Below are positions 378-37,687 of a DNA stretch of 37,717 bases, in pieces. A program made the translations under genes and the position numbers. Every line of letters begins with the position of its first letter. Position 1 is the stretch's first letter. Below the pieces are notes generated by a model. That model saw nothing but the letters and a program-made list of their open reading frames with translations. It did no database searches and had not been told where the DNA came from. The stretch comes from an uncultured Verrucomicrobiota bacterium (GTDB lineage: Bacteria > Verrucomicrobiota > Kiritimatiellia > Kiritimatiellales > Tichowtungiaceae): contig CAIKWE010000008.1 in assembly GCA_903831085.1 (NCBI GenBank), positions 1 to 37,717 of the forward strand, given 5' to 3'.

Positions 378-392
378 TTCCAATGTTTGGAA
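378..392. repeat. TTCCAA-N3-TTGGAA palindrome, exact copy (spacer TGT)
   Basis: This is a perfect inverted repeat with 6-bp arms and a TGT spacer, between divergent nadD and the sulfatase gene, 70 bp upstream of the sulfatase start. It is one of a family scattered through the whole window. A degenerate version (TTTCCAATGGTCGGA) overlaps the start region of nadD at about 326-340. Confidence 0.9.
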
Positions 393-462
393 AAGGTAAT
401 GACCGCAAAGCGACTGGCAGGAACCTCTTTACCAACTACCCGCCAAACTGTTAAAAGTCCCC

Positions 463-1881
463 ATGAATATGAACAAAAGAAACCTTTTAACCACAGCCGG
501 AATCGCGCTCGCGGCGGCCGGTGCCACAGGAGCCGAATCGCAGACTCCTTCTAAACCGAACATCCTCTGGATCATGACCGACCAGCAACCCGCCGACATG
601 ATGAGCTGCGCGGGAAACGCCAACCTGCGCACTCCGGCTATGGATGCTCTCGCAACCAACGGCGTCCGCTTTGAACTCGCCTACACCGCCAACCCGATCT
701 GCGTTCCCTCCCGAACCTCGATGATGACCGGACGCCTGCCGCACGAGACTGGAGTGAAATTCAACCTCGCCCGCTTCGACGTCTCTGCGGAGTCGCTCGG
801 AGCCCGCATGAAGCAGGCCGGCTATGACACCGCCTACATGGGCAAATGGCACATCCCGATGGAAAGCAAGAACAGCAAATGGCACGGATTCGATGTCATG
901 CTGGATGATCCAAAGGAATTTAATGACGAGCATCTTGAAGCACCCTTGACCGCTTTCATTAAGCAGAAACGGGATAAGCCCTTCTTTCTCGTCGCCTCGT
1001 TCACCAATCCGCACGACATCTGTGAATTCGCCCGCAAGCTGGCCAACTTCGGAAAGGGTGAAGAACCGAAGAATGGACCGTTCTTCGACCCGCCGCCGCC
1101 GGCACAGTGCCCTAAGCTGCCGGCCAACTTTGCCATTCCTCAAAACGAACCCGACATGATTCGCGTGCATCAAACGTGGCAGGAAAACACCTACCCGGCC
1201 CGCGACTGGACCGACGGACTCTGGCGGCAATACCGCTGGGAGCTCTGTCGCCTGACCGAACTCGTTGATTCCCGCATCGCCACCCTGCTCGACGCCCTGC
1301 GCGCGGAAGGACTGATGCAGAAGACCTTAATCGTACTGGTCAGCGACCATGGCGATGGCAACGCCGCGCACCACTGGAATCAGAAAACGCTCTTTTATGA
1401 TGAAACGGCGCGCGTTCCGCTCATCCTCAGCGGCCCCGGTATCTCAGCACCGGGCCGCACCGACCGCGAGCACCTCGTCTCAACCGGTCAGGATCTGTTT
1501 CCCACCTTCTGCGACTACGCCGGAATCGAAACGCCGGAAACATTGCGCGGACGGAGCCTTCGTCCGCTGGCCGAAGGCCGTGCGACCGCCTGGCGCAATC
1601 AGCTGGTTTCTGAAAACGATCTGGCCCGCCGGTTTGGCCTGGGCAGCGGCGTGGAGGGAAGAATGCTCCGCACTCAGAATTATAAATATGTGGTCTACTC
1701 CTACGGAAAAATACGCGAACAACTGACCGACATGCGCAACGACCCCGGCGAGATGAATAATCTGGCCGTCGATCCGAAATTCCGGGAAATCCTGCAGGAA
1801 CACCGTAACCGCCTCGCCGCCGAACTCAAAGAAACCGGCGACTTCTTCAACGTCCCCGGCACCGACTCCGCACCGCTTTAA
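463..1881 (+). CDS. Secreted sulfatase (arylsulfatase/alkaline phosphatase superfamily)
   Basis: This is a hydrolase of sulfate esters, probably acting on sulfated polysaccharide outside the cytoplasm. The 472-residue protein starts with a signal-like stretch (KRNLLTTAGIALAAAGATGA) and then PNILWIMTDQQ, where D40 and Q41 lie in the metal site. CVPSRTSMMTGR at 80-91 is the sulfatase signature, and C80 would be converted to formylglycine by a maturase that is not in this window. GKWH at 127-130 and SDHGDGN near 293 are further active-site motifs. Residues 1 and 3 are both Met, so the start could be 463 or 469; no clear ribosome binding site precedes either. The substrate cannot be told from the sequence. 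The KR pair near the N-terminus is not a proper twin-arginine motif, so Sec export is more likely. Confidence 0.93.
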   Translation: MNMNKRNLLTTAGIALAAAGATGAESQTPSKPNILWIMTDQQPADMMSCAGNANLRTPAMDALATNGVRFELAYTANPICVPSRTSMMTGRLPHETGVKFNLARFDVSAESLGARMKQAGYDTAYMGKWHIPMESKNSKWHGFDVMLDDPKEFNDEHLEAPLTAFIKQKRDKPFFLVASFTNPHDICEFARKLANFGKGEEPKNGPFFDPPPPAQCPKLPANFAIPQNEPDMIRVHQTWQENTYPARDWTDGLWRQYRWELCRLTELVDSRIATLLDALRAEGLMQKTLIVLVSDHGDGNAAHHWNQKTLFYDETARVPLILSGPGISAPGRTDREHLVSTGQDLFPTFCDYAGIETPETLRGRSLRPLAEGRATAWRNQLVSENDLARRFGLGSGVEGRMLRTQNYKYVVYSYGKIREQLTDMRNDPGEMNNLAVDPKFREILQEHRNRLAAELKETGDFFNVPGTDSAPL

Positions 1882-1897
1882 TCAGCCCGCAGAATTC

Positions 1898-1974
1898 TTC
1901 CAATGTTTGGAAACTGTAGGTGCTGGCGATGACCGCGCCCACCGTGCGCGGCTACAGGACATCCAATGTTTGGA
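1898..1974. repeat. Two TTCCAA-N3-TTGGAA palindromes flanking a GC-rich palindrome
   Basis: The first copy at 1898-1912 is exact (spacer TGT), 16 bp after the sulfatase stop. The second, at 1961-1975, has one mismatch (ATCCAATGTTTGGAA). Both are in the same orientation and bracket the inverted repeat at 1914-1957. Confidence 0.85.
1914..1957. repeat. GC-rich nested palindrome
   Basis: CTGTAG at 1914-1919 pairs with CTACAG at 1952-1957. Inside it, CCGCGC (1933-1938) pairs with GCGCGG (1946-1951). It could form an asymmetric hairpin in RNA. No run of T follows, so it is not a classical terminator of the sulfatase gene. Confidence 0.65.
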
Positions 1975-1978
1975 AAAC

Positions 1979-4027: not shown

Positions 4028-4452
4028 ACCACAGAGGGCACGGAGGAACACAGAGGGGTCAGTTTACCCGCCGTGTAATACCTTCCCTAAGGTGCTTCAC
4101 ATTAAAATTTATAAGCAAACCAACTTTGCATCTACTCAACTTCAAATAGGTAATCAGTTGCGCCTCATGAACCGGAAGCGTCTTTTCAACTGACTTCAAT
4201 TCAACAATCACCTGATCTTCAACCAGAATATCCAGCCGGTAACCGGCATCCACTTCAACACCCTCATACACCACCGGAAGAATCACCTCCGCCTTTACAG
4301 CTAGTCCTTGCTTCTTCAATCATACACCAGACAGGCCTGATAGGCACTCTCGAGGAGCCCCGGGCCAAGCGCCGAATGCACCTTCATGGCCGCACCAATT
4401 ATTTTCTCTGTCAATTGATCCATCCTCAGTGATCCTCTGTGTCCTCTGTGGT
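4028..4452. mobile_element. Putative cassette with 29-bp inverted ends carrying a GxxExxY gene
   Basis: The left end at 4028-4056 reads ACCACAGAGGGCACGGAGG and continues. The right end at 4424-4452, read on the minus strand, starts ACCACAGAGGACACAGAGG. By eye 25 of 29 positions agree, so the two ends are imperfect terminal inverted repeats built from 9-bp CACAGAGGA-like units. The GxxExxY frame fills the space between them: its ATG touches the right end and its stop lies 2 bp from the left end. The unit sits between gatA and gatB, which normally adjoin. Repeats of this ACAGAGG type near GxxExxY genes are familiar from other genomes, but mobility is my inference. No transposase is present. Confidence 0.65.
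4059..4423 (-). pseudogene. GxxExxY protein (PD-(D/E)XK nuclease-like), frameshifted
   Basis: The start frame reads [20 protein letters not shown] and then [15 protein letters not shown] before a stop. GLLESAY is the family's G-x-x-E-x-x-Y motif. The second frame continues with KKQGLAVKAEVILPVVYEG, then YRLDILVEDQVIVELKSVEK, and ends GITRRVN. The D...ELK pattern is the PD-(D/E)XK-type catalytic core. The two frames join near 4320: one missing base turns the expected Tyr-Glu-Leu-Lys-Lys into a stop. The total length, 365 bases, is one short of 122 codons, which fits a single deletion. A TTG at 4319 could start the second half (86 codons), but that product would lack the motif. Function of the family is not established. 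A sequencing error in the source would restore an intact gene. Confidence 0.85.
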
Positions 4453-5915
4453 TAAATTCTTGGTTTCTGCCGATGCCAATCGGTGGTCTGTTCGTAGGCG
4501 TGGCCGATTTTGAGGATATTCGCCTCTTTGAACGAGTCGCCGAGAATCTGGAGCCCGATCGGCAGGCCCGCCTTCGAAAATCCGCACGGCACGCTCAGTC
4601 CGCAGATGCCCGCGAGATTGACCGGCGTGGTTAGAATGTCGTCGAGGTACATCTTGAGCGGGTCGTTGGTCTTCTCGCCGATTTTATAGGCAGGTGTCGG
4701 CGTAACCGGCGCGAGGATCGCGTCGCACTGCTTGAAGGCTGCGGTGAAATCGTTACGGATGAGCGTGCGGACTTTCTGAGCGCGCAGGTAATAAGCGTCG
4801 TAGTAGCCGCTTGAAAGAACGTAGGTGCCAAGAATAATGCGGCGTTTGACTTCCGGCCCGAAGCCAGCGGCGCGGGTTTTGCCGTACAGCTCAATCGGAT
4901 CGGCACCGTCTTTGCGCAAGCCGTAGCGGATGCCATCGAAGCGCGCGAGGTTGGCGGAGGCTTCGGCGGTGGCGATGATGTAATAGACCGCAATCGCATA
5001 CTTTGAATGCGGCAGACTAATATTCACAATCTCTGCGCCGAGTTCCTGACAATGCTTTTTTGCATTCCAGACAGCCGTTGCAACTTCGGTATCCATACCA
5101 TCGACAAAATATTCGTTCGGCAGGCCAAGCTTCATTCCCTTGAGGCTGTGGTCATCCGTCAGCTCTTTTGCAAAGTTCGGAACGGGCAGATCGATCGAAG
5201 TGGAATCCATTTCGTCTTTGCCCGCCATCGCTTCGAGCAGAATGGCGGAATCCTTCACCGTCTTGGTGATCGGACCGATCTGGTCGAGCGACGAGGCAAA
5301 GGCGGTTAGGCCGTAACGCGAAATCATACCGTAAGTCGGCTTCAGGCCAACGCATCCGCAGAAGGCGGCGGGCTGGCGGATCGAGCCGCCGGTATCGGAG
5401 CCTAGCGCGGCGACCGCTTCGTCGGCAGCGACGCTGGCGGCGGAGCCGCCGGAGGAGCCGCCGGGAACGTGGTCGGTATTCCACGGATTGCGCGTCTTCT
5501 TAAACGCCGAGCTTTCGGTGCTGGAGCCCATCGCAAACTCGTCCATGTTGACGCGGCCAAGGAAAACCGCGCCCGCTTCGCGCAGTTTGGCGATGGCGGT
5601 GGCATCGTACGGCGCGATGTAGCCCTCGAGGATTTTCGACGAGCAGGTGCAGGGCTGACCTTTGACGTTGAGCAGGTCTTTAATCGCCAACGGGATGCCA
5701 AGCAGCGCGCCCTTTTTACCGGCGGCGCGCGCCTTGTCGGCGGCTTCGGCCTGTTTCAGCGCGGAGGCGCGGTCGAGGGTCAGGTAGGCGTTGATTTTCC
5801 CGTCGCGCGCATCAATCGCGGCGAGCACATCGTTGACGATCTCGACGGAAGTGCATTTTCCCTGCTCCAGAAGGTCGGACAACTCGGAAATTGTTTTGGT
5901 GTTAAGGTTAGCCAT
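4452..5915 (-). CDS. gatA: Aspartyl/glutamyl-tRNA(Asn/Gln) amidotransferase subunit A
   Basis: GatA is the glutaminase of the GatCAB complex and feeds ammonia to GatB. The 487-residue protein is an amidase-signature enzyme with the full Ser-cisSer-Lys triad visible: K79 in AIKD, S154 in GGSSGG and S178 in DTGGSIRQP. Length is normal for the family. It starts 2 bases after the gatC stop, so the two are co-transcribed. Its stop codon (TAA at 4454-4452) overlaps the end repeat of the inserted cassette, and the C-terminus (DWHRQKPRI) looks complete. GatB, the third subunit, follows after that cassette. The presence of GatCAB implies that at least one of Gln-tRNA(Gln) or Asn-tRNA(Asn) is made by transamidation in this organism. 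Confidence 0.97.
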
Positions 5916-6269: not shown

Positions 6270-6284
6270 TTCCAATGTTTGGAA
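6270..6284. repeat. TTCCAA-N3-TTGGAA palindrome, exact copy between divergent gatC and trmB
   Basis: The arms are exact, the spacer is TGT, and extra flanking T and A extend the symmetry. A half-site (TTCCAAACAT) follows at 6301-6310, just 19 bp before the trmB start. The position suits an operator acting on either or both divergent units, but no regulator is known. Confidence 0.88.
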
Positions 6285-6328
6285 ATTTCCGTTGATATTC
6301 TTCCAAACATCGTAAAAATGGCCGCCCT

Positions 6329-8402: not shown

Positions 8403-9602
8403 ATGGAAGAGACACGCAAAATCTACAGCGTCGCCGAACTGAACCGCGCGGCACGCTACACGCTCGAAAACGGCATCGGCGAAGTCTGGGTCGAGGGCGA
8501 GATCTCGCGACTGACACGCCAGTCGAGCGGTCACTGGTATTTTACGCTTAAGGACGAAGCCGCCGCCGTCTCCTGCGCCATGTTCAAACAGAACAACGCC
8601 TCAGTCATCTTCGAGCCGAAGGATGGACTCAAGGTTCGTGTTTTCGGGCAGGCCAGCCTTTACGAGCCGCGTGGAAGCTATCAGCTCATCATCCGCAAAA
8701 TGGAAGAAGCCGGCAAAGGTTCGCTCCAGGAGCAGTTTGAAAAGCTGAAGGCGAAGCTCGCTGCCGAAGGGCTATTCGACGAAGCGCGCAAAAAGCCGTT
8801 GCCGCTCCTGCCGCAGAAAATCGGCGTGGTCACCTCCCCGACTGGCGCGGCTATCCGCGACATCATCAACGTGCTGACGCGGCGGTTTCCAAACCTTGGA
8901 ATCCTGCTCGCACCGGTCACCGTGCAAGGCGAAGGCGCGGCGGAAAAAATCGCCGCCGCCATTGAATATCTCAATACCCGCGACGACATCGACCTGATGA
9001 TTGTCGGGCGCGGCGGCGGAAGTATCGAAGATCTCTGGGCGTTCAACGAAGAGGTCGTCGCCCGCGCCATTGCCGCTTCGCGGATTCCGGTGATTTCAGC
9101 AGTCGGCCACGAAATTGATTTCACCATCAGCGATTTTGTCGCTGACGTTCGCGCACCGACGCCGTCGGCCGCCGCCGAGCTCGCTGTTCCGGTGAAAGCC
9201 GAGATGGAAACGCAGATTGCGCGGCTGGCCGCGCGACTTGGCGGATCACTGCAGAATCAGGTTCATATTCTGCGCGAGCGGATTCCCGGCTTTCGAAAGA
9301 CCATGGCACATGCCCTGCGCAATGGTGTACAACAGAGACAGCAGCGAGTCGATCAGTCCGCCGTCGCCCTTTCATACCGTCTGCAAAGCGCGGTCATGGA
9401 GCGGAAACAGGATTTAAAACGGCTGGGACTTCAGTTTCGTGCGCTGAGTCCGCTGGCCGTGCTCGACCGCGGCTACAGCCTGACGCAGACAGCGGAAGGC
9501 GATGTTGTACGCGATGCAAGCCATTTGAAAAAAGGCGACACGCTGAAGACCCGATTTGCAAAAGGAACCGTTCTGTCAGAAGTCAAAAAGAAGGAGGCGT
9601 AA
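8403..9602 (+). CDS. xseA: Exodeoxyribonuclease VII large subunit
   Basis: XseA is the catalytic subunit of exonuclease VII, which degrades single-stranded DNA from both ends. The 399-residue protein has the N-terminal OB fold (YSVAELNRAARYTLENGIGE, then WVEGEISRL), the central catalytic region with KIGVVTSPTGAAIRDI and VGRGGGSIEDLWAFNEE around residues 200-216, then SAVGHEIDFTISDFVADVRA and TPSAAAE. A helical coiled-coil segment and the C-terminal LDRGYSL motif follow. An exact TTCCAA-N3-TTGGAA palindrome lies inside the gene at 8887-8901, encoding FPNLG. The small subunit gene follows 3 bases downstream. Confidence 0.97.
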   Translation: MEETRKIYSVAELNRAARYTLENGIGEVWVEGEISRLTRQSSGHWYFTLKDEAAAVSCAMFKQNNASVIFEPKDGLKVRVFGQASLYEPRGSYQLIIRKMEEAGKGSLQEQFEKLKAKLAAEGLFDEARKKPLPLLPQKIGVVTSPTGAAIRDIINVLTRRFPNLGILLAPVTVQGEGAAEKIAAAIEYLNTRDDIDLMIVGRGGGSIEDLWAFNEEVVARAIAASRIPVISAVGHEIDFTISDFVADVRAPTPSAAAELAVPVKAEMETQIARLAARLGGSLQNQVHILRERIPGFRKTMAHALRNGVQQRQQRVDQSAVALSYRLQSAVMERKQDLKRLGLQFRALSPLAVLDRGYSLTQTAEGDVVRDASHLKKGDTLKTRFAKGTVLSEVKKKEA

Positions 9603-9605: not shown

Positions 9606-9836
9606 ATGGCCGAAAAAACTGTCGATTTTGAAAAATCGCTCGAACGGCTCGAAACCCTTGTTGAAGAGATGGAAAGCGGAGATCTTTCGCTCGAACAGAT
9701 GATCAAACATTTCGAAGAAGGCTCGAAACTGGTGACTCTCTGCTCCGGCAAGCTCAACGAGGTCGAGCAGAAGATAGAAAAGCTGGTGAAAAAAGGCGGC
9801 GCACTGACTACCGAGCCGTTCAAGCCAGAGGAGTAG
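9606..9836 (+). CDS. xseB: Exodeoxyribonuclease VII small subunit
   Basis: XseB wraps the coiled-coil arm of XseA to form the active exonuclease VII complex. The 76-residue protein contains DFEKSLERLETLVEEMESGD followed by LSLEQMIKHFEEG, the standard XseB core, with LCSGKLNEVEQKIEKL behind it. The ribosome binding site AAGGAGG overlaps the end of xseA, consistent with coupled translation. Transcription probably ends in the two-hairpin element that begins 4 bases after the stop. Confidence 0.95.
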   Translation: MAEKTVDFEKSLERLETLVEEMESGDLSLEQMIKHFEEGSKLVTLCSGKLNEVEQKIEKLVKKGGALTTEPFKPEE

Positions 9837-9839
9837 TCC

Positions 9840-9950
9840 TTTTGGAATGCGGTGATAAAGGTATTCCGTACCACCGCTTTTCCAGCGCGAATTTTCACAA
9901 GACAAAAAAAAGCGGCGATAAGCCAAAGGCTTTATCGCCGCACTCCAAAA
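9840..9950. repeat. Two-hairpin element with inverted ends, copy A (likely bidirectional terminator)
   Basis: The ends are inverted copies of TTTTGGARTGCGGYGATAAA. The left hairpin pairs GCGGTG with CACCGC and is followed by TTTT. The right hairpin pairs GCGGCGATAA with TTATCGCCGC and is preceded by AAAAAAAA. Read outward on each strand, each hairpin is followed by a T run, so the element can stop transcription from both xseB (plus) and the CBS gene (minus), which converge here. A homologous element is at 21233-21345. Confidence 0.85.
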
Positions 9951-9958
9951 CTCTTCAC

Positions 9959-12669: not shown

Positions 12670-12747
12670 TTCCAAACATTGGAACTTTCTACTCCAATTC
12701 TTCCAATGTTTGGAAACATTTCCGGCTAAAAGTTCCAATATCTGAAA
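12670..12747. repeat. Cluster of TTCCAA-N3-TTGGAA palindromes upstream of lysA
   Basis: Two exact copies lie in opposite spacer orientation: 12670-12684 (spacer ACA) and 12701-12715 (spacer TGT), with centres 31 bp apart, close to three helical turns. A degenerate third copy (TTCCAATATCTGAAA) lies at 12733-12747, with its centre 32 bp further. The regular spacing places all three on one face of the DNA. Confidence 0.85.
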
Positions 12748-14209: not shown

Positions 14210-14281
14210 AGCGTGTGCTTCCTGCCGTGAAGTGTGCTGTGCTCTAAACTTCTACGGCGCGCCGGCCTCGGTCTTCTGTAG

Positions 14282-14321: not shown

Positions 14322-14359
14322 ACCCACAGAAAGAATGCAATATCGACTTTCGTGGCTGC

Positions 14360-14386: not shown

Positions 14387-14412
14387 AATTGAAAAGGGGT
14401 CAAAATTAAAGG

Positions 14413-15361: not shown

Positions 15362-15447
15362 TTCCAAACATTGGAAACTGCGACATTCTGGCTCTCTCTG
15401 CCGGACAAATGAGACAGATCGGTCGGAAAGTTTCCCAACCATTGGAA
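15362..15447. repeat. TTCCAA-N3-TTGGAA palindromes upstream of dnaK
   Basis: The copy at 15362-15376 (spacer ACA) is exact, and the symmetry extends outward to AGT/ACT, giving 9-bp arms. A second copy at 15433-15447 has one arm mismatch (TCCCAA). Both lie in the 342-base gap between the PEP-CTERM gene and dnaK. The remainder of that gap holds a heptamer array at 15471-15498 and no gene I can support. Confidence 0.85.
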
Positions 15448-20400: not shown

Positions 20401-20436
20401 TTCCGATGTTTGGAAACTTTCCTTCAATGTTTGGAA
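20401..20436. repeat. Two imperfect TTCCAA-N3-TTGGAA palindromes after smpB
   Basis: TTCCGATGTTTGGAA (20401-20415) has one arm change and CTTCAATGTTTGGAA (20422-20436) has two, both in the left arm and both with spacer TGT. They lie in the gap between smpB and the unknown gene, 24 bp before its ATG. Confidence 0.8.
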
Positions 20437-20459: not shown

Positions 20460-20870
20460 ATGAGAAGCCGTGAAGCCATGCAATGGGAGGAAACGCTCAA
20501 AGGCGTTTTTGACTCCATTGACGCCGAACTCGAAACGGAATACAGCGGAAGATATTCACTTCACCCTTCCCGTCCGGCACGCGGCATCACCGCCAATCCG
20601 GAAGACGATGGACTCTTCAATGTCGGCGCGGCCTTTTCAGCGGGATTCGGTTCAAAATACGGCCCCGGCTACGTCGTCGAGATCCGCCTGTCCACGCTCA
20701 TCAATGTGCCCGACGAAGTGCGGGCGGAGATTAAAGCCAAAGTTTTCCAACGTTTGGAAAAACAGCTTCCGGCGGCCTTCCCCGGCAAGGAACTGCACGT
20801 CTCTGAGGAAAACGGCGTCATCCGCATTCACGGCGATTTGAGTCTGGACGACTGCGTTTCAAAATCATAA
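20460..20870 (+). CDS. Hypothetical soluble protein
   Basis: I do not recognise this 136-residue protein. It has no signal peptide or membrane segment. It looks like a small alpha/beta protein with a Glu-rich N-terminal helix (EETLKGVFDSIDAELETEYS) and a C-terminal part containing YVVEIRLSTLINVPDEVRAE and VIRIHGDLSLDD. The start at 20460 is chosen because the earlier in-frame ATG lies inside the palindromes; no ribosome binding site is obvious. A perfect TTCCAACGTTTGGAA palindrome with 8-bp arms is inside the gene (20745-20759), encoding part of VFQRLEKQ. The last 43 bases overlap the end of the convergent minus-strand gene. It could be co-transcribed with rpoZ-smpB. Confidence 0.7.
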   Translation: MRSREAMQWEETLKGVFDSIDAELETEYSGRYSLHPSRPARGITANPEDDGLFNVGAAFSAGFGSKYGPGYVVEIRLSTLINVPDEVRAEIKAKVFQRLEKQLPAAFPGKELHVSEENGVIRIHGDLSLDDCVSKS

Positions 20871-21345: not shown

Positions 21346-22731
21346 CTATTTCTGCTCCGTCTGAGCAGGAATCGATCGGCCAAAAAACTTTTTGATCTGA
21401 AACTTACGATCAATGTCGTTGAAGGAAAGAATAAGCATCGCGCCGATCAGCAGAACGGCGAAGAAATTGATCAGAACCGTCTGAATTTTTACATTTATCT
21501 TGCGGCGGGTGATGCCGTGCCAGAGTGAGAAGACGATGTGCCCGCCGTCGAGTACCGGAATCGGCAGAAGATTCAAAACTGCAAGATTGACGTTGAGGAA
21601 GCGGATCAGCCCGAGCGTATTCACGAGACCCATTTTAATTGCCATTGTCAACATGCTGAAAATCGCAATCGGCCCCCCGAGTCCGCCCGCCGCCTGTTTG
21701 GCTTCCGACGGTGTAACCAGCGCTTTGAGCACGCGGACAATGGCAAGCGCGTCATATTTGAGCTGGTCGAGCGGATTTTTGTAAAGCATCCACGGCAGGC
21801 CGCTACCGCCGAGCTGCACACCGATCATGATGCGTTTATATTCTGCGTTGTATTCGGGCACGATGAAGAGATTAAGCCGTTCGCCTTTGCGCTCAATGGT
21901 GAGCGCCGCCGGGACGCCGGGCTCGACCGCCTGCACCAGTTCGGTGAAATGTTCCCAGCCCAGCACGGTCACTCCATTAAACAAAAGCGCTGTGTCGCCG
22001 CTTTTGACGCCCGCCAGATCGGCCGGACTGCCCTTTGTCACCGAACCGAAAAGACAGGGAATGGCGGGTTCAACCCCTTCAATTGTGCGCACACCCTCTT
22101 CACCCTTCACCACCGGAACATCCAGATGCCGGTCGATGCCGGCGTTGCGGAGATCTAGCGCGACGGTGTCGCTGTTTTTCAAAAAGGCCTCCACCGTGAA
22201 GTCATACCAGCTCTTAATGGCGGCACCGTTGACGACTGTGATCTCGTCCCCTTTGCGCAGACCGGCGGCGTAAGCGGCACTGTTGGTTTCAATACTTCCA
22301 ACGATTGGACGGATTTGCGTACTCGCGTCATTGCCGGGAATCAACCAGATGGCGATTGCCAGCAGAACCGCCAGCGCGATGTTGCCGAGTGGTCCGGAAA
22401 CGGCGACGGCGATTTTCTTCCACGGCGAAACATCGGGATACGTCTCTGCTGTTTCGTCGCCCTGAATTTTTTCCATGCCTTCCGGATCGAGCTGCGGAAG
22501 CGCGACATAACCGCCGAAAGGAATCCAGCCGATTTTGTAGAGGATGCCGTCCTTTTCCCATTTAAAGATGGCTTTTCCGAAACCGATTGAAAAAGTTTTG
22601 ACGACCAATCCGCAGCGGCGCGCCACAATAAAATGGCCGAATTCGTGAACGAAAATAGTGATGCCGAACAGAAACAGCGCCGCTAAAACGGTGTAGAAAA
22701 CGGTCCAGCAGGTCAGGAAAAAATCAGCCAT
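21346..22731 (-). CDS. rseP: RIP metalloprotease RseP (site-2 protease family)
   Basis: RseP is an inner-membrane zinc protease that cleaves anti-sigma factors and signal-peptide remnants within the membrane. The 461-residue protein has HEFGH at 29-33 in the first membrane segment, GWIPFGGYVALPQLDPEG, two PDZ domains in the periplasmic region (GSIETNSAAYAAGLRKGDEI and GSVTKGSPADLAGVKSGD), and NLLPIPVLDGGH near the end, the second zinc motif. It lies 18 bases after cdsA in the order purA-uppS-cdsA-rseP, and uppS-cdsA-rseP is a very common envelope operon. The anti-sigma substrate is not in the window. Confidence 0.96.
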   Translation of the reverse strand: MADFFLTCWTVFYTVLAALFLFGITIFVHEFGHFIVARRCGLVVKTFSIGFGKAIFKWEKDGILYKIGWIPFGGYVALPQLDPEGMEKIQGDETAETYPDVSPWKKIAVAVSGPLGNIALAVLLAIAIWLIPGNDASTQIRPIVGSIETNSAAYAAGLRKGDEITVVNGAAIKSWYDFTVEAFLKNSDTVALDLRNAGIDRHLDVPVVKGEEGVRTIEGVEPAIPCLFGSVTKGSPADLAGVKSGDTALLFNGVTVLGWEHFTELVQAVEPGVPAALTIERKGERLNLFIVPEYNAEYKRIMIGVQLGGSGLPWMLYKNPLDQLKYDALAIVRVLKALVTPSEAKQAAGGLGGPIAIFSMLTMAIKMGLVNTLGLIRFLNVNLAVLNLLPIPVLDGGHIVFSLWHGITRRKINVKIQTVLINFFAVLLIGAMLILSFNDIDRKFQIKKFFGRSIPAQTEQK

Positions 22732-22749: not shown

Positions 22750-23604
22750 CTAGCGAAGGAAAAACTTGATGTAGATGTACATGAAAGGCGCGGTGAAAAG
22801 CAGGCTGTCGATCATATCGAGCATACCGCCCAATCCGTGCGCAATCGCGCCGGAGTCCTTGATATCCACCGCCCGTTTAAACAGGGATTCCACCAGATCG
22901 CTGACGGTTCCAATGATTGGAAGAAGAACGCCGAGAATCAGAGCGTGAACCAGAGAGAACTTATACGGCCCGAGCATGCCGTTGGCAAAGTGCCACCAGA
23001 GTACGCCGACCACGCAGGAAAAAAGGATGCCGCCGAAAAGTCCTTCCCAGCTTTTCTTCGGAGAAATACGTGGACACATTTTATGCTTCCCGAAACGCGA
23101 ACCGATGAAATAGGCCCCGCCGTCGCCCCATTTGACAACCAGCAGAAGATAAAACGCGGTCAGGCCCGGCGCGTCATTTCCGCCCGCCATATACAACCGG
23201 ACAAAAAAGCTCCAGAAAAACGCCACGTAAAGGAAACCGAACAGCGTGCCCAGCGCATTGCGCAACGCCTGTCGTGCATCGGTATAGCCGAACAGCCGGA
23301 GAAAAATAACCATCAGAATAATCAAAAGCAGCGACCACAGCATGTCATCACCGGAAAATATTGGACAAGGATACTTCGCGGTCAGCCAGGTCATGGCGAC
23401 AAACAGCAGCCCGCAGGTTATCCCCATCTTCTCCGAGGCAAGCAGTTCGGCGCGCTGCATCAGCGCATAGACTTCGCGCGTAGCCAGACCGCAAATCGCC
23501 AGAAGTCCCAGCAGTACCGCGATATTTCCCGCCGGAACCAGCAACATCGCGATCGAAAGAACAACGGCTATAGTCAGCCCCGTTATGATTCTTTTTTTAT
23601 CCAT
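22750..23604 (-). CDS. cdsA: Phosphatidate cytidylyltransferase
   Basis: CdsA makes CDP-diacylglycerol, the precursor of bacterial phospholipids, in the inner membrane. The 284-residue protein is hydrophobic with about eight spanning segments. It contains KWGDGGAYFIGSRFGKHK, SPKKSWEGLFGG and the CdsA signature region SLFKRAVDIKDSGAIAHGLG followed by GMLDMIDS. The last part departs from the usual HGG-IVL-DRxD: here it reads HGLGGMLDMID, so the Arg is Met. An exact TTCCAA-N3-TTGGAA palindrome is inside the gene at 22908-22922. The start at 23604 follows the uppS stop by 8 bases with GGGGGAA as ribosome binding site. Confidence 0.95.
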   Translation of the reverse strand: MDKKRIITGLTIAVVLSIAMLLVPAGNIAVLLGLLAICGLATREVYALMQRAELLASEKMGITCGLLFVAMTWLTAKYPCPIFSGDDMLWSLLLIILMVIFLRLFGYTDARQALRNALGTLFGFLYVAFFWSFFVRLYMAGGNDAPGLTAFYLLLVVKWGDGGAYFIGSRFGKHKMCPRISPKKSWEGLFGGILFSCVVGVLWWHFANGMLGPYKFSLVHALILGVLLPIIGTVSDLVESLFKRAVDIKDSGAIAHGLGGMLDMIDSLLFTAPFMYIYIKFFLR

Positions 23605-23612: not shown

Positions 23613-24344
23613 CTACTGCGTCACGACTCCGCCGTAGCGGCGTCCACGCTGATTAAAAGCTTCCAAGGCCTGGAAAAACTGCTCCTCGCGGAAATCCGGC
23701 CAAAACACATCAGTCACATACAACTCGGCATAAGAAAGCTGCCAGAGCAGAAAGTTACTCAGACGCAGCTCGCCGCTGGTGCGGATCATCAGTTCCGGAT
23801 CCGGCACATCCGGCAGGTAAAGATGCTGCGCCACCGTCTCCTCATTCACCGTTTCGGGATCAAGCTCTCCGGACGCCGCCTTGCGCGCGATCGCTTTCGC
23901 CGCTTCGGCGATTTCGAGGCGGCTGCCGTAACTCAACGCCACGATCAACGTGTATTCATAATCCTTTGCCGACTTCTCCATCAGTTTCGAAAGCTTCTTC
24001 TGCAGATTCTCCGGCAGACGTTCGATCTGACCCATCACCCGCAAGCGGATTTTATTTTTCAGAATCTCGCCTTCATAGCGATCCATGAAAACACCCAGCA
24101 GATTCATCAACCCTTCGACTTCATCTTTCGGGCGGATCCAGTTTTCCGTGCTGAATGCGTAGAGCGTCAGATATTTCACGCCCGCCTGCCGCGCCGCACG
24201 AAGCACCGCGCGAACCGACTCCGCGCCCTGCTCATGGCCTTTCAGCCGCGGAAGCCCGCGCTGTTTCGCCCAGCGTCCGTTGCCGTCCATAATGATCGCA
24301 ACGTGCTCCGGGATTTTTTCAAGCTTTGGAACTTCAGGGTTCAG
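23613..24344 (-). CDS. uppS: Isoprenyl transferase (undecaprenyl diphosphate synthase), apparent non-ATG start
   Basis: UppS builds undecaprenyl diphosphate, the lipid carrier for peptidoglycan and other envelope polymers. MDGNGRWAKQRG and the later LMIRTSGELRLSNFLLWQLS, with YAELYVTDVFWPDF, are the family signatures. Starting at the first ATG (24290) would give 225 residues and cut off the conserved beginning: directly upstream in frame lies PKLEKIPEHVAII, the family's P-x-H-V-A-I-I-M-D-G-N-G. No ATG, GTG or TTG occurs between the in-frame stop at 24350-24348 and 24290. CTG at 24344, with GAGG 8 bases before it, is the best candidate, giving 243 residues. It starts 10 bases after the purA stop. 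Confidence 0.93.
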   Translation of the reverse strand: MNPEVPKLEKIPEHVAIIMDGNGRWAKQRGLPRLKGHEQGAESVRAVLRAARQAGVKYLTLYAFSTENWIRPKDEVEGLMNLLGVFMDRYEGEILKNKIRLRVMGQIERLPENLQKKLSKLMEKSAKDYEYTLIVALSYGSRLEIAEAAKAIARKAASGELDPETVNEETVAQHLYLPDVPDPELMIRTSGELRLSNFLLWQLSYAELYVTDVFWPDFREEQFFQALEAFNQRGRRYGGVVTQ

Positions 24345-25740: not shown

Positions 25741-25788
25741 TTCCCAAGGTTTGGAAAAATATGGGGGAAAAGTTTCCAATCCTTGGAA
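25741..25788. repeat. TTCCAA-N3-TTGGAA palindromes between purA and the SDR gene
   Basis: The copy at 25774-25788 is exact (spacer TCC). The copy at 25742-25756 has one arm change (TCCCAA, spacer GGT). Their centres are 32 bp apart, as in the lysA upstream cluster. Confidence 0.85.
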
Positions 25789-25809: not shown

Positions 25810-26676
25810 ATGAAAACTGCTCCGGTAAAAATAAAAACGGTTTTGGTCACCGGATGCTCATCCGGCATCGGATTGGCAACGGCGCGGCTTCTGCACGAAC
25901 GCGGCTGGCAGGTCGCCCCGACGGCTCGCAAGGCCGCCGACCTCGACATGCTCCGCGCCGAAGGCTTCGATCCCGTCGTGCTCGACGTGACCGACAGCGC
26001 CTCGATTGCCAATGCGGCCAGCGCCGTGCTCGCCCGCTTCGGCGGACAGCTCGGAGCCATAGTCAATAACGCCGGCTTCGGCCTAACCTCGGCCATCGAA
26101 GACGCGCCGCGCGCCATGCTCCGCGATATTTTTGAAGTGAACGTCTTCGGACTTCAGGAACTGACCAGCCGGTTCATTCCCCTTTTCCGCAAACAAGGCT
26201 ACGGCCGCATCGTCAACGTCAGCTCGGTGGTTGGCGAGTTGAGCCTGCCGTTTGCCGGCGTTTATTCGGCGTCGAAATTTGCGGTCGAAGCGCTTTCCGA
26301 CGCCCTGCGCCGAGAACTGTTCGATTCCGGCGTCGCCGTCTCGATCATCCAGCCAGGGCCAATTGAAACGAAGTTTTCTGAAAATCTGGCGCACCACACT
26401 GAACGTTATCCAGCGAATCCGGACTCGCCGTTCACAGAATTTTACAAGGAAGCGATTGGAACGCGTAAAACCGGCAAGGCCGCCCGCACGGCAGAGAAAT
26501 TCATGAAACCGCCGGAAGCCGTCGCAGAGAAAATTTTCCAATGTCTGGAAAGTGCCCGCCCGCCGATCCGCGCCCGCGTCACCGCCGTCGCTTATTTTGG
26601 AGCCTTCGTCCGCCGCGCCCTGCCCGCCTCACTGGTTGACGCGGTTATGATCTCTCAACTGAAAAAGCGTATCTGA
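25810..26676 (+). CDS. Short-chain dehydrogenase/reductase (classical SDR)
   Basis: This is a cytosolic NAD(P)-dependent oxidoreductase of 288 residues. The TGCSSGIG cofactor motif is at 14-21, NNAG at 86-89, the catalytic serine in VNVSS at about 139, and Y152 and K156 in YSASK. The C-terminal extension (about residues 190-288) is of the length seen in retinol-dehydrogenase-like SDRs. The substrate cannot be read from the sequence. The frame is open upstream to 25648, but 25810 is chosen because the Rossmann fold begins there and the upstream part is palindrome-rich. It contains a near copy of the palindrome at 26536-26550. It ends 2 bases before the convergent TPR gene. Confidence 0.93.
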   Translation: MKTAPVKIKTVLVTGCSSGIGLATARLLHERGWQVAPTARKAADLDMLRAEGFDPVVLDVTDSASIANAASAVLARFGGQLGAIVNNAGFGLTSAIEDAPRAMLRDIFEVNVFGLQELTSRFIPLFRKQGYGRIVNVSSVVGELSLPFAGVYSASKFAVEALSDALRRELFDSGVAVSIIQPGPIETKFSENLAHHTERYPANPDSPFTEFYKEAIGTRKTGKAARTAEKFMKPPEAVAEKIFQCLESARPPIRARVTAVAYFGAFVRRALPASLVDAVMISQLKKRI

Positions 26677-27386: not shown

Positions 27387-27505
27387 TTTATACTCCTTAT
27401 GTGTTTTGGGCATTTCCCACACCGCCGACTTATAGGTCAAGGGACGGAATTTAAGAAGCTGAATTTGCGCAAGAACCGGCAAGTTGATCTGCTCAATCTT
27501 CCTCA

Positions 27506-27564
27506 AAGGTGGAGCGTGATCGCCGAGCACGCTCAAAACGCGCCCGGCGGTCGCGTTCCACCTT
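27506..27564. repeat. 59-bp near-palindrome upstream of the PFOR gene
   Basis: The sequence begins AAGGTGGA and ends TCCACCTT. Of 29 base pairs, 22 are Watson-Crick, and three of the mismatches are G-T, so plus-strand RNA could fold into one long hairpin. It lies in the 405-base gap 27387-27791 between the TPR gene and PFOR. An open frame crosses the gap, but I see no protein evidence for it. Apart from this palindrome and the PFOR ribosome binding site (CAGGAGAAAG), the gap shows nothing I can name. Confidence 0.75.
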
Positions 27565-27791
27565 GTAGCCGAGTCTACATTTTTCCGTACTTTGGACTGA
27601 AAAAAGGCTTCTGTTCGGGGCCGATTTTTGAAATTCTCTCAGCTCCGCATGACAAACAGCGGAAAGTGAATTTGCAAGAACCCCTTTTTTACGGAAAACC
27701 GGCAGGAAAGCGGCAAAGGCAACAAACCGGAGATGAGAGTTTCCACGGAATTTAAACAGAAACGCACAATCCTCAGGAGAAAGAAGCAGAC

Positions 27792-31310
<3,519 letters not shown>

Positions 31311-31527: not shown

Positions 31528-32478
31528 ATGGTAAATTTAAAAACCACCTACATGGGGTTGAATCTTAAAAACCCGATTATTGTCGCCTCCTCGCCTGTAT
31601 CTCAGAATCTTGATGACCTCCGCAGAGCCGCCGATGCGGGTGCCGCGGCGGTCGTCATGTTCTCCCTTTTCGCGGAACAGCTCGGGTCTCTCGGCGAAAC
31701 GCCTTATCTTCCTGATGTTTACGTCTGCGATCCGGATGCTTATCTAAACCTCATTCAGAAGGCCGTCAAGCAGTCCGGAATTCCAATCATTGGAAGTCTC
31801 AACGGCGTGACCAACGAAGGATGGGTTGAGTATGCCAAAGAAATCGAGCAGACCGGCGCGGCCGGACTCGAACTGAACATCTACCACGTCGCCGCCAATC
31901 CCGAAGAAACCGGCGCCGAGATCGAGAAACGGCATCTCGACATCCTCAAAGCCGTCAAGAGCGCCGTCACCATTCCCGTTGCCATGAAGATCAGCCCCTA
32001 CTTCAGCTCGCTGGGCAATATGGCTAAACAATTCGACGATGCCGGGGCCGACGCTCTCGTTCTCTTCAACCGGTTTTACCAGCCCGACTTCGACCTCGAA
32101 GCGATGGAGGTTGAAGCGACTCTCGACTTCAGCTCGTCTGCTGAAATCCGCCTGCCGTTGCGCTGGATCGCCATGCTGCACGGCAAGCTCAAGGCCTCGC
32201 TGGCCGCCTCCATCGGTGTGCAGAACGGCGCGGAAGTTGTCAAATATCTACTGGCTGGCGCGGATGCCGTTATGACCGCTTCCGCCTTGATCAAAAACGG
32301 ACCGGGATATGTCGGCGTTCTGATCGAAGAGCTTCAGGAGTGGATGAAACAGAAAGAGTACGACTCTCTCGAACGGCTCAAGGGCGCGATGAGCCAGCGC
32401 GCCGTTCCCAATCCCGGCGAATTCGAGCGGGCCAACTACATTAAAGTGCTCGAAACCTATAAGCGGAAGCAGGTCTAA
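31528..32478 (+). CDS. Dihydroorotate dehydrogenase-like flavoprotein
   Basis: The 316-residue TIM-barrel protein opens MVNLKTTYMGLNLKNPIIVA SS like class 1 dihydroorotate dehydrogenases, and keeps the FMN-binding Lys region (VAMKISPYFS, K154) and the late phosphate-binding GVQNGAEVVKYLLAGADAVM. The region that holds the catalytic Cys or Ser in true enzymes (N-x-S-C-P-N) reads ELNIYHVAANPEE here, so the usual base is absent. It is therefore probably not the pyrimidine-pathway enzyme. Genes of this type are often found next to PFOR. The start at 31528 is chosen over an upstream GTG because AGGAGG precedes it. An exact TTCCAATCATTGGAA lies inside at 31781-31795. Confidence 0.88.
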   Translation: MVNLKTTYMGLNLKNPIIVASSPVSQNLDDLRRAADAGAAAVVMFSLFAEQLGSLGETPYLPDVYVCDPDAYLNLIQKAVKQSGIPIIGSLNGVTNEGWVEYAKEIEQTGAAGLELNIYHVAANPEETGAEIEKRHLDILKAVKSAVTIPVAMKISPYFSSLGNMAKQFDDAGADALVLFNRFYQPDFDLEAMEVEATLDFSSSAEIRLPLRWIAMLHGKLKASLAASIGVQNGAEVVKYLLAGADAVMTASALIKNGPGYVGVLIEELQEWMKQKEYDSLERLKGAMSQRAVPNPGEFERANYIKVLETYKRKQV

Positions 32479-32487: not shown

Positions 32488-32558
32488 TTCCGATGTTCGG
32501 AACCGGCCTTCGCTGAAAGCTACGGCGTGTCAGGGAAAAAAGTTTCCCAAGATTGGAA
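32488..32558. repeat. TTCCAA-N3-TTGGAA palindromes upstream of pyrG
   Basis: TTCCGA-TGT-TCGGAA (32488-32502) carries matched changes in both arms, so symmetry is kept. TTCCCA-AGA-TTGGAA (32544-32558) has one change and extended flanking symmetry. Both lie in the 166-bp gap before pyrG, with the second 86 bp from the start. Confidence 0.8.
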
Positions 32559-35694: not shown

Positions 35695-36439
35695 TCTTCA
35701 AACGGGCAAGCGCCCGTTCGCGAATCGGCCTGAACATAAAGAGCGGAAAAAAGAATAGGTAGAACGGTAGACTGCCTGCCACGATATCGGACAGCCAGTG
35801 GCCGCCGCCCGCCAGACGGGGAAGCACAAAAAAAACCATTCCTAAGGCCGCCGCCACGCCATACCAGGAGCGCAGGCGGTAAATGATGTATGAACCGATA
35901 AACATCAAAACCGTGGCATGATCACCGGGGAAGCTGTCGTTGGATTTAACCTTAACCTTCCAGGTGATGACATCCTTCAAGTCCGAAAGAATAACCGCCC
36001 GCTCTTTCAATCCCGCAGTTTCCGTCGGTGATGGGCGATAGAAATGAATAGTTGATTCGCAGATAAGTATAACCAGAAGAAGTGTAACCGTCATATAGAT
36101 ACCGAACTGCACCAGCTCGGCGCGGTCTTCGTTCCGCGGATTGCGGATAAGATAAATAACAAAAAGCAGAACCATCCAGGAAGCGGCGGCCAGATCAAAC
36201 GCGCGGTGATTGGTCACGCCCCAGACCATCTGCATGGCAGAGTTGTTCTTCATCGTGCCGTTGAGGGCGAGAAACACGCTGTAATCCATTTTCTTCCACA
36301 GCGAGTCCTGCTGTGTATAGCGGACGGCCCAGCGCCCCTTGTGATCCCTATAACTTTCCTGACATCGGAACCAGCTGGAAAAAAGGGTGACGGCCAGAAC
36401 CATGGACAGCAAAACCAACACGATCGACTGCTTTTTCAA
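35648..36439 (-). CDS. PAP2-family membrane phosphatase
   Basis: The 263-residue protein has an N-terminal membrane anchor (MKKQSIVLVLLSMVLAVTLF) and five further hydrophobic segments. The PAP2 motifs appear as FYRPSPT (motif 1, partial), SFPGDHATVL (motif 2, catalytic His) and PRLAGGGHWLSDIVAG (motif 3, His and Asp). Enzymes of this type remove phosphate from lipid diphosphates such as undecaprenyl diphosphate or lipid A. Which lipid is used cannot be told, although motif 2 with GDH rather than SGH is the version common in lipid A-type and related phosphatases. The C-terminus is basic. The end overlaps the MFS gene by 47 bases. Confidence 0.9.
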   Translation of the reverse strand: MKKQSIVLVLLSMVLAVTLFSSWFRCQESYRDHKGRWAVRYTQQDSLWKKMDYSVFLALNGTMKNNSAMQMVWGVTNHRAFDLAAASWMVLLFVIYLIRNPRNEDRAELVQFGIYMTVTLLLVILICESTIHFYRPSPTETAGLKERAVILSDLKDVITWKVKVKSNDSFPGDHATVLMFIGSYIIYRLRSWYGVAAALGMVFFVLPRLAGGGHWLSDIVAGSLPFYLFFFPLFMFRPIRERALARLKIIFHSVRSRMNRSCG

Positions 36440-36511
36440 AATAAGTTCCCTTGAGTTATTTTTTCAGGGACGGATGAAACAAAATTTCAAGCCCTTGCTC
36501 AAGACAATCCT

Positions 36512-37687
36512 TTATTCCGCACGGCAGAGAAGGCCTTTGAGATAAGCCCCTTCCGGAAAATTCAAGGCGACCGGATGATCCGGCGACTGATTCAGAACCG
36601 CCAGAATCTGCGCGCTGCGTCCGGCATCCAGCGCTGAATCAGAAACAATCTTCTGAAACAGCGGCATCTCCATCAGGCCGGAACAGGAAAAAGTAAAAAG
36701 CAGTCCGCCGGGCCGCAGCAGTTTAAAGGCCAGCAGATTGATATCCTTGTAACCGCGCGCGCCGCCGTCGAGCTGACTGCGCGATTCGATGAATTTTGGC
36801 GGATCAAGGATGATGAGGTCGAAGTCGCGCCGCGAGTCGCGGAAGCGGCGCAGCTCCTTGAAAACGTCGCCGCACATATATTCTGATGCCGCCGGATCGA
36901 GTCCGTTGAGCACCGCGTTCTGCCGCGCAATTTCGAGCGCAGGTTCCGAACTGTCCATCTGTAAAACATACTTCGCGCCGCCCAGCAGCGCGGCGACGCC
37001 GAAGCCGCCGGTGTAGGAAAAGCAGTTGAGCACGTCGCGGCCATCGGCCCAATTTCGCACGGCGGCGCGGCTGTCGCGCTGATCGAGGTAGTAACCGGTC
37101 TTGTGCCCGCCTTTAATATCCACCAGCAGGCGCATGCCGTTTTCGTTGATCTCGACGTGCTCCGGCGGCTCCGTGCCAGCCAGTACGCCGCAACGTGACG
37201 GAAAGCCTTCCTTTTCGCGCACCGAAACATCAGAGCGCTCGTAGATGGAAAGTCCGGGGAAAATTTCATGTAACAGTTCGACGATAGTGTCTTTCCAATG
37301 TTCGGAACCGGCGGAAAGAAACTGGCAGACAATCCAGTCTGCGTAGCGGTCGATGATCAAGCCGGGCAGTCCGTCTGACTCCGCCGCGACCAGACGGATT
37401 GCATTGGAATTGATCTTCCGGCGGGCGGAAACCGCGTTTTTCAGCTTCGTACGGAAAAAAGCCGCATCGATGATCGTCTCCGGATTAAAGCTCCAGACAC
37501 GCAGGGCAATCTGCGACTGCGGTGACCACGCCGCCTGCGCCAGCGGCTTGCGGTCGAACGAACAAACCGTGACGGTTTCGCCGACACCCGGCGCGCCTTC
37601 AACACGCTCAATCGCGCCGGAAAATATCCACGGATGCCGCTGAAGCAGATTTTTTTCGCGACCTTTTTTGAGGATGACGGAGGACAT
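36512..37687 (-). CDS. rlmI: Class I SAM-dependent rRNA methyltransferase (RlmI-like)
   Basis: RlmI methylates C5 of a cytosine in 23S rRNA (C1962 in E. coli). The 391-residue protein has an N-terminal PUA domain (ILKKGREKNLLQRHPWIFSG), a middle EEHD-like domain, and a Rossmann-fold methyltransferase domain with NCFSYTGGFGVAALLGGAK for SAM, ILDPPKF and FTFSCSGLM, whose Cys would be the catalytic nucleophile. Length matches RlmI. The start at 37687 has a good AAGGAGG ribosome binding site. It is the last gene of a minus-strand unit that enters the window from the right. The exact target base in this organism is inferred. A near copy of the palindrome (37293-37307) is inside. Confidence 0.93.
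   Translation of the reverse strand: MSSVILKKGREKNLLQRHPWIFSGAIERVEGAPGVGETVTVCSFDRKPLAQAAWSPQSQIALRVWSFNPETIIDAAFFRTKLKNAVSARRKINSNAIRLVAAESDGLPGLIIDRYADWIVCQFLSAGSEHWKDTIVELLHEIFPGLSIYERSDVSVREKEGFPSRCGVLAGTEPPEHVEINENGMRLLVDIKGGHKTGYYLDQRDSRAAVRNWADGRDVLNCFSYTGGFGVAALLGGAKYVLQMDSSEPALEIARQNAVLNGLDPAASEYMCGDVFKELRRFRDSRRDFDLIILDPPKFIESRSQLDGGARGYKDINLLAFKLLRPGGLLFTFSCSGLMEMPLFQKIVSDSALDAGRSAQILAVLNQSPDHPVALNFPEGAYLKGLLCRAE

Follow-up and report, generated by a model that had tools for sequence, protein, structure and literature searches.

Helically phased arrays of a TTCC...GGAA palindrome in Kiritimatiellia chromosomes, possible sites of a DNA-folding protein

The window analysed here is a 37,717-nucleotide stretch of DNA from an uncultured bacterium of the class Kiritimatiellia (contig CAIKWE010000008.1 of GenBank assembly GCA_903831085.1), and its subject is a dispersed 15-base-pair (bp) palindrome, TTCCAA-N3-TTGGAA. 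The palindrome occurred far above chance in the window, throughout the source genome and in part of the class, and neighbouring copies were mostly separated by whole turns of the DNA helix. The motif is a real, class-level feature. The palindrome and the whole-turn phasing together give good support for a dimeric DNA-binding protein, which may coat or fold these chromosomes. The best single reading of the data was a dimeric protein on one face of the helix that forms cooperative arrays along the chromosome and has an architectural role, a reading held with about even confidence.

The source genome (G000) comprises 2,138,574 bases in 60 contigs. Eleven exact copies were present in the window, whereas 100 dinucleotide shuffles gave a mean of 0.00 and 200 sequences of an order-5 Markov control gave a mean of 0.03 with a maximum of 1. 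When up to two mismatches were allowed, 28 copies were found against 1.91 expected, and none of the 100 shuffles reached 28. The window was also scanned for any 6-bp inverted repeat with gaps of 0-8. TTCCAA-N3 was at the top with 11 copies, the runner-up at the same gap had 1, and the runner-up overall, TTTCCA-N5 with 5 copies, was the same word taken one base wider. The original prediction had listed 11 exact and 10 near copies and had held them to be beyond chance expectation. Every position given for the exact copies was right, all 10 near copies were there, and the shuffle and Markov controls bore out the excess; seven more near copies, at 327, 5168, 6301, 12733, 22296, 24317 and 28467, had been missed. 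A genome-wide count, which it had proposed as a check, gave 379 exact copies against 1 for the control (the same pattern reversed), so the word was not limited to the window.

Two samples were studied in depth, 390 kilobases (kb) of G000 and 420 kb of G081, a one-contig genome of 3.88 Mb with 567 copies. The working motif was TTCC-RR-NSN-YY-GGAA with T/A flanks. Among the 72 exact copies in the G000 sample, the base before the arm was T in 72% and the next base outward was T in 51%, and the central spacer base was G or C in 94%. In copies with one mismatch, the change was from A to G at the inner two arm positions in 55 of 95 cases for G000 and 45 of 69 for G081, and the outer T was changed in 21 and 7 cases, respectively. 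TTCC...GGAA is the rigid core of the word.

The spacings between neighbouring copies were mostly 21-22, 31-32, 41-42, 52-53 or 62-63 bp, which correspond to whole helical turns. Pairs of copies with up to two mismatches in the G000 sample peaked at 31-32 bp (20 pairs) and 21-22 bp (5 pairs), and the spacings of up to 66 bp in the G081 sample were solely 22, 30-33, 41-43, 52-54 and 62-64 bp. For pair distances of 16-130 bp, the concentration R at 10.5 bp was 0.88 in G081 (82 pairs) and 0.62 in G000 (61 pairs), and the maxima of 1000 jittered nulls were 0.44 and 0.47, respectively. Moreover, 29 pairs in G081 and 20 in G000 lay at 30-33 bp, where the nulls reached at most 7 and 6, respectively. 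The best-fit period was 10.05-10.45 bp in six genomes, of which G162 rested on 14 pairs. Phasing was also seen between coding copies, and a codon effect was ruled out as its cause because 22, 31 and 53 cannot be divided by 3. Spacings outside the pattern (16, 18, 38, 48 and 56 bp) occurred in G000 too. Three of the five groups in G090 (family f10) were symmetric, with 6-7 copies spaced by 22-31-31-30-22 (twice) and 22-30-31-31-31-22, and the other two were 22-30 and a single 22; strings of 31 were found in G162, and mostly 31-32 in G012. The spacer sequences varied from array to array, and tandem duplication is therefore an unlikely origin. The phasing is a direct physical clue, pointing to a protein that occupies a single face of the DNA double helix. 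On a larger scale, 14 clusters lay in 60 kb of contig 1 of G012 (L212-L214), and 9 of their 13 gaps were 4-7 kb, which by eye was more even than expected; the cluster gaps of G000 looked near random (variation coefficient 0.91).

The distribution of the motif was surveyed in 387 genomes of the phylum, 131 of the window's class and 256 of other classes. The comparison with related genomes that had been suggested for the motif showed it to be abundant in 36 of the 131 class genomes, which came from 12 of 40 families and carried 14 to 1,339 exact copies; the others carried at most 7. The maximum in the other classes was 5, and the reversed-pattern controls gave 0-3 across the survey. For comparisons within the window's genus, genomes with 100 or more copies per Mb were termed motif-rich and those below this cut motif-poor, with G393 on the boundary. 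A relaxed pattern, TTCCRRNSNYYGGAA, was counted in 44 chosen genomes. It occurred 684 times in G000 (control 4), 181-403 times in motif-poor congeners (controls 0-1), 49 times in G023, 20-24 times in G050, G087 and G038, and 0-6 times in the chosen members of families f6, f10 (genus g17), f11, f12 and f19 (controls 0-7). In G015 of family f5, 334 relaxed copies (control 2) were accompanied by only 3 of the exact type (TTCCAANNNTTGGAA). Family f5 probably has a diverged dialect of the word, and a low exact count can thus mean another dialect in some families. A 23-kb piece of G148 held no copy, although the whole genome has 365.

Loci with the paired pattern were also traced by database label. 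Among the matches listed, 29 of 114 were labelled Lentisphaerota, 27 Kiritimatiellota, 25 Verrucomicrobiota, 1 Bacteroidota and 1 Bacillota, and 31 were unlabelled; taxonomy labels of metagenome-assembled genomes are often outdated or wrong. Nine viral stretches had paired copies. Five of them, from four contigs (L134 to L138), had copies with a G or C centre, and the most copies were on the single viral contig that includes L134 and L135 (IMGVR_UViG_3300035698_006241), with several phased arrays, some of them within genes. The stretches L130-L133 were set aside because their exact copies were all without a G or C centre. By eye, the pairs 31-32 bp apart in three loci of genomes with 2-5 copies (L175, L178 and L180) adjoined restriction-, CD-NTase- or RhuM-like genes, which suggests import from motif-rich relatives. 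No reader candidate emerged from the remaining pairs in copy-poor genomes.

The placement of copies relative to genes was evaluated with approximate gene calls from our own script. Copies at stretch ends were left unclassed, and stretches with more than 30% masked bases were omitted, which kept 120 of 140 kb for G162 and 106 of 114 kb for G090; all four stretches of G159, which were masked, were set aside as well. Of the classed exact copies in G000, 41 fell in genes and 26 between them (intergenic bases made up a share of 0.106, p 1.4e-9), and the corresponding values in G081 were 47 and 17 (p 1.4e-4). Exact copies were not concentrated at promoters in these two genomes, with 41 of 67 and 47 of 64 classed copies in genes. 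The classed exact copies of G012, G090 and G162 were all intergenic (18/18, 22/22 and 8/8), with none coding. When two mismatches were allowed, the copy densities of convergent, tandem and divergent gaps were 2.49, 1.90 and 1.25 per kb in G000 and 2.92, 1.61 and 1.15 per kb in G081, giving rate ratios of convergent to other gaps of 1.48 (p 0.20) and 1.93 (p 0.11), respectively. In 49 kb of G388, 5 copies fell in 0.5 kb of convergent gap. Copies in tandem gaps were nearer to the upstream stop codon in G012 and G090 and were spread in G000 and G081. The coding copies were even along the gene length (chi-square p 0.49 and 0.68) and occurred in all three frames, translating in G000 as FQxLE (17), xPxxG (13) and SxxW (10).

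No convincing recurrent neighbour was found among 339 genes flanking intergenic arrays; one gene cluster, lysA-like, recurred in 5 genome groups that were partly congeners, and four further clusters recurred in 3 genome groups each. There was no recurrent DNA-binding gene in the clusters checked, part of whose genes were identified. Along the G081 chromosome, 20 stretches of 20 kb (a 10% sample) held 60 exact copies, some close to either GC-skew switch and others away from them, and 4 of the 60 were in the six stretches at 0.1-1.1 Mb. A segregation signal of the matS/parS type, one of the roles entertained in the original prediction, found no support in this sample, in which neither a terminus nor an origin bias was seen. 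The first 649 kb of G081 held about 100 copies among the matches listed. A stretch of 126 kb (G081:C1:94631-220624) had no exact copy among the matches listed; the one 20-kb piece read there carried two copies with two mismatches and, by eye, a sulfatase and other accessory-type genes.

Orthologous sites were compared within the genus, and gapped alignments were omitted from the divergence figures. Between motif-rich congeners, the arms differed at 0.034 of their positions, the spacer at 0.316 and the flanks at 0.195, and 41 of 58 copies were still exact (6.5 expected at the flank rate). Between motif-rich and motif-poor congeners, the values were 0.168, 0.410 and 0.203, and 3 of 48 copies were still exact (4.9 expected). 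Comparison from motif-poor to motif-rich genomes gave 3 of 5 exact copies, and that from motif-poor to motif-poor gave 0 of 1. The core eight positions differed by 0.037 in motif-rich genomes and by 0.141 in motif-poor ones, the latter against 0.203 in the flanks, indicating that some constraint or recency is left in the motif-poor genomes. Since many comparisons share a site, they were regrouped into 25 orthologous groups, and one ascertaining copy was dropped from each; 13 of 28 copies were kept in motif-rich and 2 of 23 in motif-poor genomes (Fisher p 0.005). The orthologous sites were mostly gap-free and differed by substitution, and gapped alignments made up 8 of 66 and 7 of 55. When dnaK from 13 congeners was used for a tree, the density class changed at least 4 times along it, with several forks unresolved and gain indistinguishable from loss. 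The factor seems dispensable, and the sites in several species of the genus evolve almost as though unconstrained. Congeners with intact and with decayed sites form a natural loss experiment, and comparison of their gene contents should point to the reader protein.

Candidates for this reader were sought by protein family, with PF01037 (Lrp/AsnC) and ComEC surveyed in 80 of the 131 class genomes and TetR, LysR and XRE in 23 genomes, 14 of them motif-rich. Lrp/AsnC was matched in all 36 motif-rich genomes and in 39 of the 44 motif-poor ones. According to an alignment of 16 Lrp-type proteins, the recognition-helix region differed among the motif-rich G000, G081, G012, G090 and G162, and the family was rejected as the reader because the helix is not conserved where the site is. 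Upstream of the Lrp-like gene, G000 had two near copies 22 bp apart and G081 a single exact copy; no copy lay there in the G012 and G090 pieces. The locus L322 (C39:47200-48100 of G000) encodes an Lrp-like protein that belongs to the core of the class; its effector domain is strongly conserved, and its recognition helix is unconserved and partly acidic. TetR (PF00440) was rejected as a universal reader with no match in 4 of the 14 motif-rich genomes (G388, G391, G393 and G162; assemblies 81-93% complete), and LysR (PF00126) with no match in 6 of the 14 (G000, G321, G393, G012, G065 and G162; 81-96% complete). Within genus g1, LysR was present in 6 of the 9 motif-rich members but in 1 of the 5 motif-poor ones, which is suggestive of tracking the motif within the genus, though LysR is not universal. 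XRE (PF01381) was found in all 23 genomes, with 2-15 matches each among the matches listed and orthologues not told apart. ComEC-type proteins did not discriminate, since 35 of the 36 motif-rich genomes and 43 of the 44 motif-poor ones had a match; G118, with 271 exact copies, had no ComEC match in an assembly 94% complete. The original prediction had looked to a conserved DNA-binding protein whose presence follows motif density, and the Lrp/AsnC, TetR and LysR families did not provide one, TetR and LysR being patchy in motif-rich genomes and the Lrp helix unconserved.

The motif TTCC-RR-NSN-YY-GGAA with its T-rich and A-rich flanks would be a double-stranded DNA site at which each palindrome takes one dimer of a sequence-specific protein. 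Dimers that share a face of the helix at distances of 2, 3, 4 or more turns (mostly 3) would touch and thereby give phased arrays. Instead of serving as a regulon's operator, the complex would wrap, bridge or compact DNA and so act on the whole chromosome. Action on the whole chromosome is most likely, given that the sites run throughout it and, in the window's genus, occupy genes as well as gaps of every type. The operator of a dimeric protein was among the first suggestions for this word, next to a signal for uptake or segregation and a site that organises the chromosome. The dimeric binder is supported by the palindrome and the phasing, whereas for the window's genus a plain operator at promoters falls short, since copies in genes and convergent gaps make promoter operators alone insufficient; it could still apply to families f4, f10 and f22, which have exact copies solely between genes and no enrichment in convergent gaps. 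A fuller account, put forward more tentatively and with less than even confidence, is that Kiritimatiellia carry a chromosome-wide code for an undescribed nucleoid protein. Its same-face arrays, symmetric in one family, would reach up to 7-8 sites over about 150-260 bp, and the word would be imposed even on coding sequence. Architectures would be lineage-specific, with a word that has probably diverged in one family, and the reader would have been repeatedly lost or weakened within the genus, leaving the sites to decay.

Several results weigh against an architectural role. No reader protein was found in the Lrp/AsnC, TetR, LysR and XRE families searched, and it would be odd for a protein central to chromosome architecture to be lost repeatedly. 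In G000 and G081, the density of copies between genes was 3 to 5 times that within them, and the purely intergenic exact copies of the three other families (G012, G090 and G162) fit regulation too. The gaps of G012, a small sample, had densities of 1.98 (convergent, 7 copies), 3.78 (tandem) and 6.69 (divergent) per kb, and the small samples of convergent gap in G090 (2.0 kb) and G162 (2.2 kb) had no copy. This lack of enrichment of convergent gaps outside the genus weakens the architectural reading and strengthens a regulator. Furthermore, the retention of 181-403 relaxed copies and of a core below the flank rate in motif-poor genomes means that the loss is recent or partial, or that the word has shifted. 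Seven orthologous groups held both kinds of genome, and 4 of them showed no rich/poor difference. The test of decay is also partly circular, as the rich and poor labels come from the same kind of count.

A global transcription regulator with a very large regulon, for which the coding and convergent copies of the genus are tolerated by-products, is a possible but rather unlikely alternative. It would account for the 6 of 11 exact window copies upstream of a gene, for the greater density between genes with wholly intergenic exact copies in G012, G090 and G162, and for convergent gaps with 7, 0 and 0 copies (up to two mismatches) in these genomes beside the dense divergent gaps of G012. Grouped 15-bp sites with short regular spacers also resemble the Lrp-type operators in the portion of PMC10201364 consulted. 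Against it, the convergent gaps of G000 and G081 were at least as dense as the others, the tandem-gap sites of G012 and G090 leaned to the upstream stop rather than the downstream start, the array-flanking genes showed little recurrence, and the coding copies were spread evenly along genes. A DNA uptake signal, whose copies spread by transformation because a competence receptor prefers the word, is improbable. Copies in genes and gaps alike within the genus, change mostly by substitution at fixed positions, widely varying counts among species, the 95-220 kb of G081 with its accessory-type genes (no exact copy among the matches listed, one 20-kb piece read) and near-universal ComEC-type proteins all agree with uptake; it does not require helical phasing or symmetric arrays of 6-7 sites, and the many copies of G118 without a ComEC match and the four viral contigs with paired copies fitting the motif speak against it.

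The remaining explanations fare worse. A methyltransferase or a mismatch-repair bias might create the word as a by-product, as was proposed for the highly iterated palindrome HIP1, and in its gross behaviour, as far as the part of PMC4390886 consulted describes HIP1, the word here is likewise a lineage-wide palindrome, low in some members and replaced in others (cf. G015). Repair bias gives no cause for whole-turn spacing, and the possible methylation word CCA-N5-TGG showed neither clear depletion nor excess outside the motif in the G000 sample (94 copies, between 47 for N4 and 138 for N6; no methyltransferase search was made), and this origin is quite improbable. Mobile palindromes of the repetitive extragenic palindrome (REP), bacterial interspersed mosaic element (BIME) or miniature inverted-repeat transposable element (MITE) kind would agree with short, dispersed, often intergenic palindromes that form arrays in several families. 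This origin is highly unlikely, given spacers that vary between arrays and orthologous sites that are mostly gap-free with substitutions; no search was made for genes of the REP-associated tyrosine transposase (RAYT). Being self-complementary, the word might form an RNA hairpin, terminator or attenuator, which is scarcely credible for a stem followed by A on both strands with no U tract, with few compensating double mismatches (8 of 62 and 7 of 78) and with phasing of about 10.4 bp, a property of double-stranded DNA.

In the window, according to the same approximate gene calls, 4 of the 11 exact copies lay within genes, 1 between converging genes and 6 upstream of a gene. A near copy with two mismatches (327..341) and an exact copy (378..392) were in a divergent gap, the latter upstream of the sulfatase gene 463-1881, and the exact copy between converging genes (1898..1912) was paired with a one-mismatch copy (1961..1975) at 63 bp, or 6 turns. 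The gene 4452-5915 on the minus strand contained a two-mismatch copy (5168..5182). In the divergent gap between gatC and trmB, an exact copy (6270..6284) had a two-mismatch partner at 31 bp (6301..6315). The exact copy 8887..8901, within the exonuclease VII large-subunit gene 8403-9602, had counterparts at the same position in congeners, which were exact in 6 of the 7 motif-rich genomes compared and in none of the 5 motif-poor ones. An array of three (12670..12747), with exact copies at 12670 and 12701 and a two-mismatch copy at 12733 (spacings 31 and 32), lay upstream of the lysA-like gene 11392-12657 on the minus strand, and an exact copy (15362..15376) and a one-mismatch copy (15433..15447) lay upstream of the HSP70 gene dnaK. 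Two near copies 21 bp apart (20401..20436) had one mismatch at 20401 and two at 20422. The exact copy 20745..20759 was within the open reading frame 20478-20870, which was without a Pfam match, and translated as FQRLE. One-mismatch copies were found within the minus-strand genes 21346-22731 (22296..22310) and 23613-24290 (23661..23675) and in a tandem gap (24317..24331), and an exact copy (22908..22922) within the minus-strand CTP_transf_1 gene 22750-23604. The divergent gap between purA and the short-chain dehydrogenase/reductase (SDR) gene held a pair 32 bp apart (25742..25788; one mismatch at 25742, exact at 25774), and the SDR gene 25810-26676 itself a one-mismatch copy (26536..26550). Further copies lay within the gene 27792-31310 (28467..28481, two mismatches), the DHO_dh gene 31528-32478 (31781..31795, exact) and the minus-strand gene 36512-37687 (37293..37307, one mismatch). 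Upstream of pyrG, near copies at 32488 (two mismatches) and 32544 (one mismatch; 32488..32558) were 56 bp apart, outside the helical pattern. The original prediction had placed intergenic copies upstream of named genes. Pfam matched these neighbours as sulfatase, GatC, Methyltransf_4 (trmB), a DAP-decarboxylase-type enzyme (lysA), HSP70, adenylosuccinate synthetase, adh_short and CTP synthase; the upstream sites are only part of the distribution.

Other repeats were also observed in the window. Two intergenic copies of an element of about 115 bp (9836-9958 and 21230-21345), about 73% alike, had inverted ends (TTTTGGA...TCCAAAA, GCGGTGATA...) and looked MITE-like, and more full or partial copies occurred in G000 and congeners. 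A 60-bp near-palindromic intergenic repeat at 27503-27565 (AAGGTGGA...TCCACCTT) had many copies in G000 and congeners. A GC-rich intergenic repeat at 14250-14520 had partial matches on several contigs of G000, with identities of about 75-92%.

To our knowledge, few bacterial lineages have a strongly iterated genome-wide palindrome. The word had no match in six spelled-out forms among 5.39 million papers, and searches on Kiritimatiellia palindromes, binding motifs and nucleoid, on repeats of the Kiritimatiella glycovorans genome and on Verrucomicrobia palindromic repeats gave no account of the motif in the titles and abstract openings listed, which agrees with the earlier remark that no named system was known for it. 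MatP/matS, Noc with its binding sites (NBS) and SlmA are systems in which dispersed palindromes are read by chromosome organisers, with tens of sites that are biased to the terminus or avoid it. The matS site, GTGAC-RNY-GTCAC, has a 3-bp centre. The present motif shares this centre and, as with NBS and SlmA sites, is a dispersed palindrome, whereas it has hundreds of sites, near both GC-skew switches and elsewhere in the 10% sample of G081. NrdR boxes are two palindromes 31-32 bp apart that are bound by an oligomer and limited to ribonucleotide reductase promoters; the pair spacing is alike, but NrdR is confined to promoters and has another sequence. The DNA uptake sequence (DUS) of Neisseria and the uptake signal sequence (USS) of Pasteurellaceae number in the hundreds, include copies within genes and have dialects that differ by lineage, and are neither palindromic nor helically phased. 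The motif is like them in copy number, genic copies and dialects and differs in being palindromic and phased.

According to the portion of PMC10201364 consulted, Sa-BarR and St-BarR of Sulfolobales have 4-5 regularly spaced semi-palindromic 15-bp sites with spacers of 15-17 bp, and Ah-BarR has spacers of 17 and 27-29 bp; 15-17 bp is counted there as two turns and 27-29 bp as three. By our own reckoning, spacers of 15-17 bp put 15-bp sites 30-32 bp apart centre to centre, as here. The BarR sites described in that portion differ in being AT-centred and in one intergenic region, whereas the present sites have a G/C centre and are chromosome-wide, and the Lrp helix is unconserved. HIP1 occurs in genes and gaps, and its density per kb is far above that of the present motif. 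HIP1 and alternate HIPs, in the part of PMC4390886 consulted, are a very frequent cyanobacterial palindrome that is low in some members and replaced in others, and its role is still argued there from models. The motif here is 15-19 bp, gapped, rarer per kb and helically phased, with no methyltransferase link shown. Like a HIP, it is a palindrome far above genome-wide expectation (379 exact copies to 1 in the genome; Markov mean 0.03 in the window), and it resembles HIP1 (GCGATCGC), as described in the same part, in being iterated across a lineage, scarce in certain members and supplanted elsewhere by a different palindrome.

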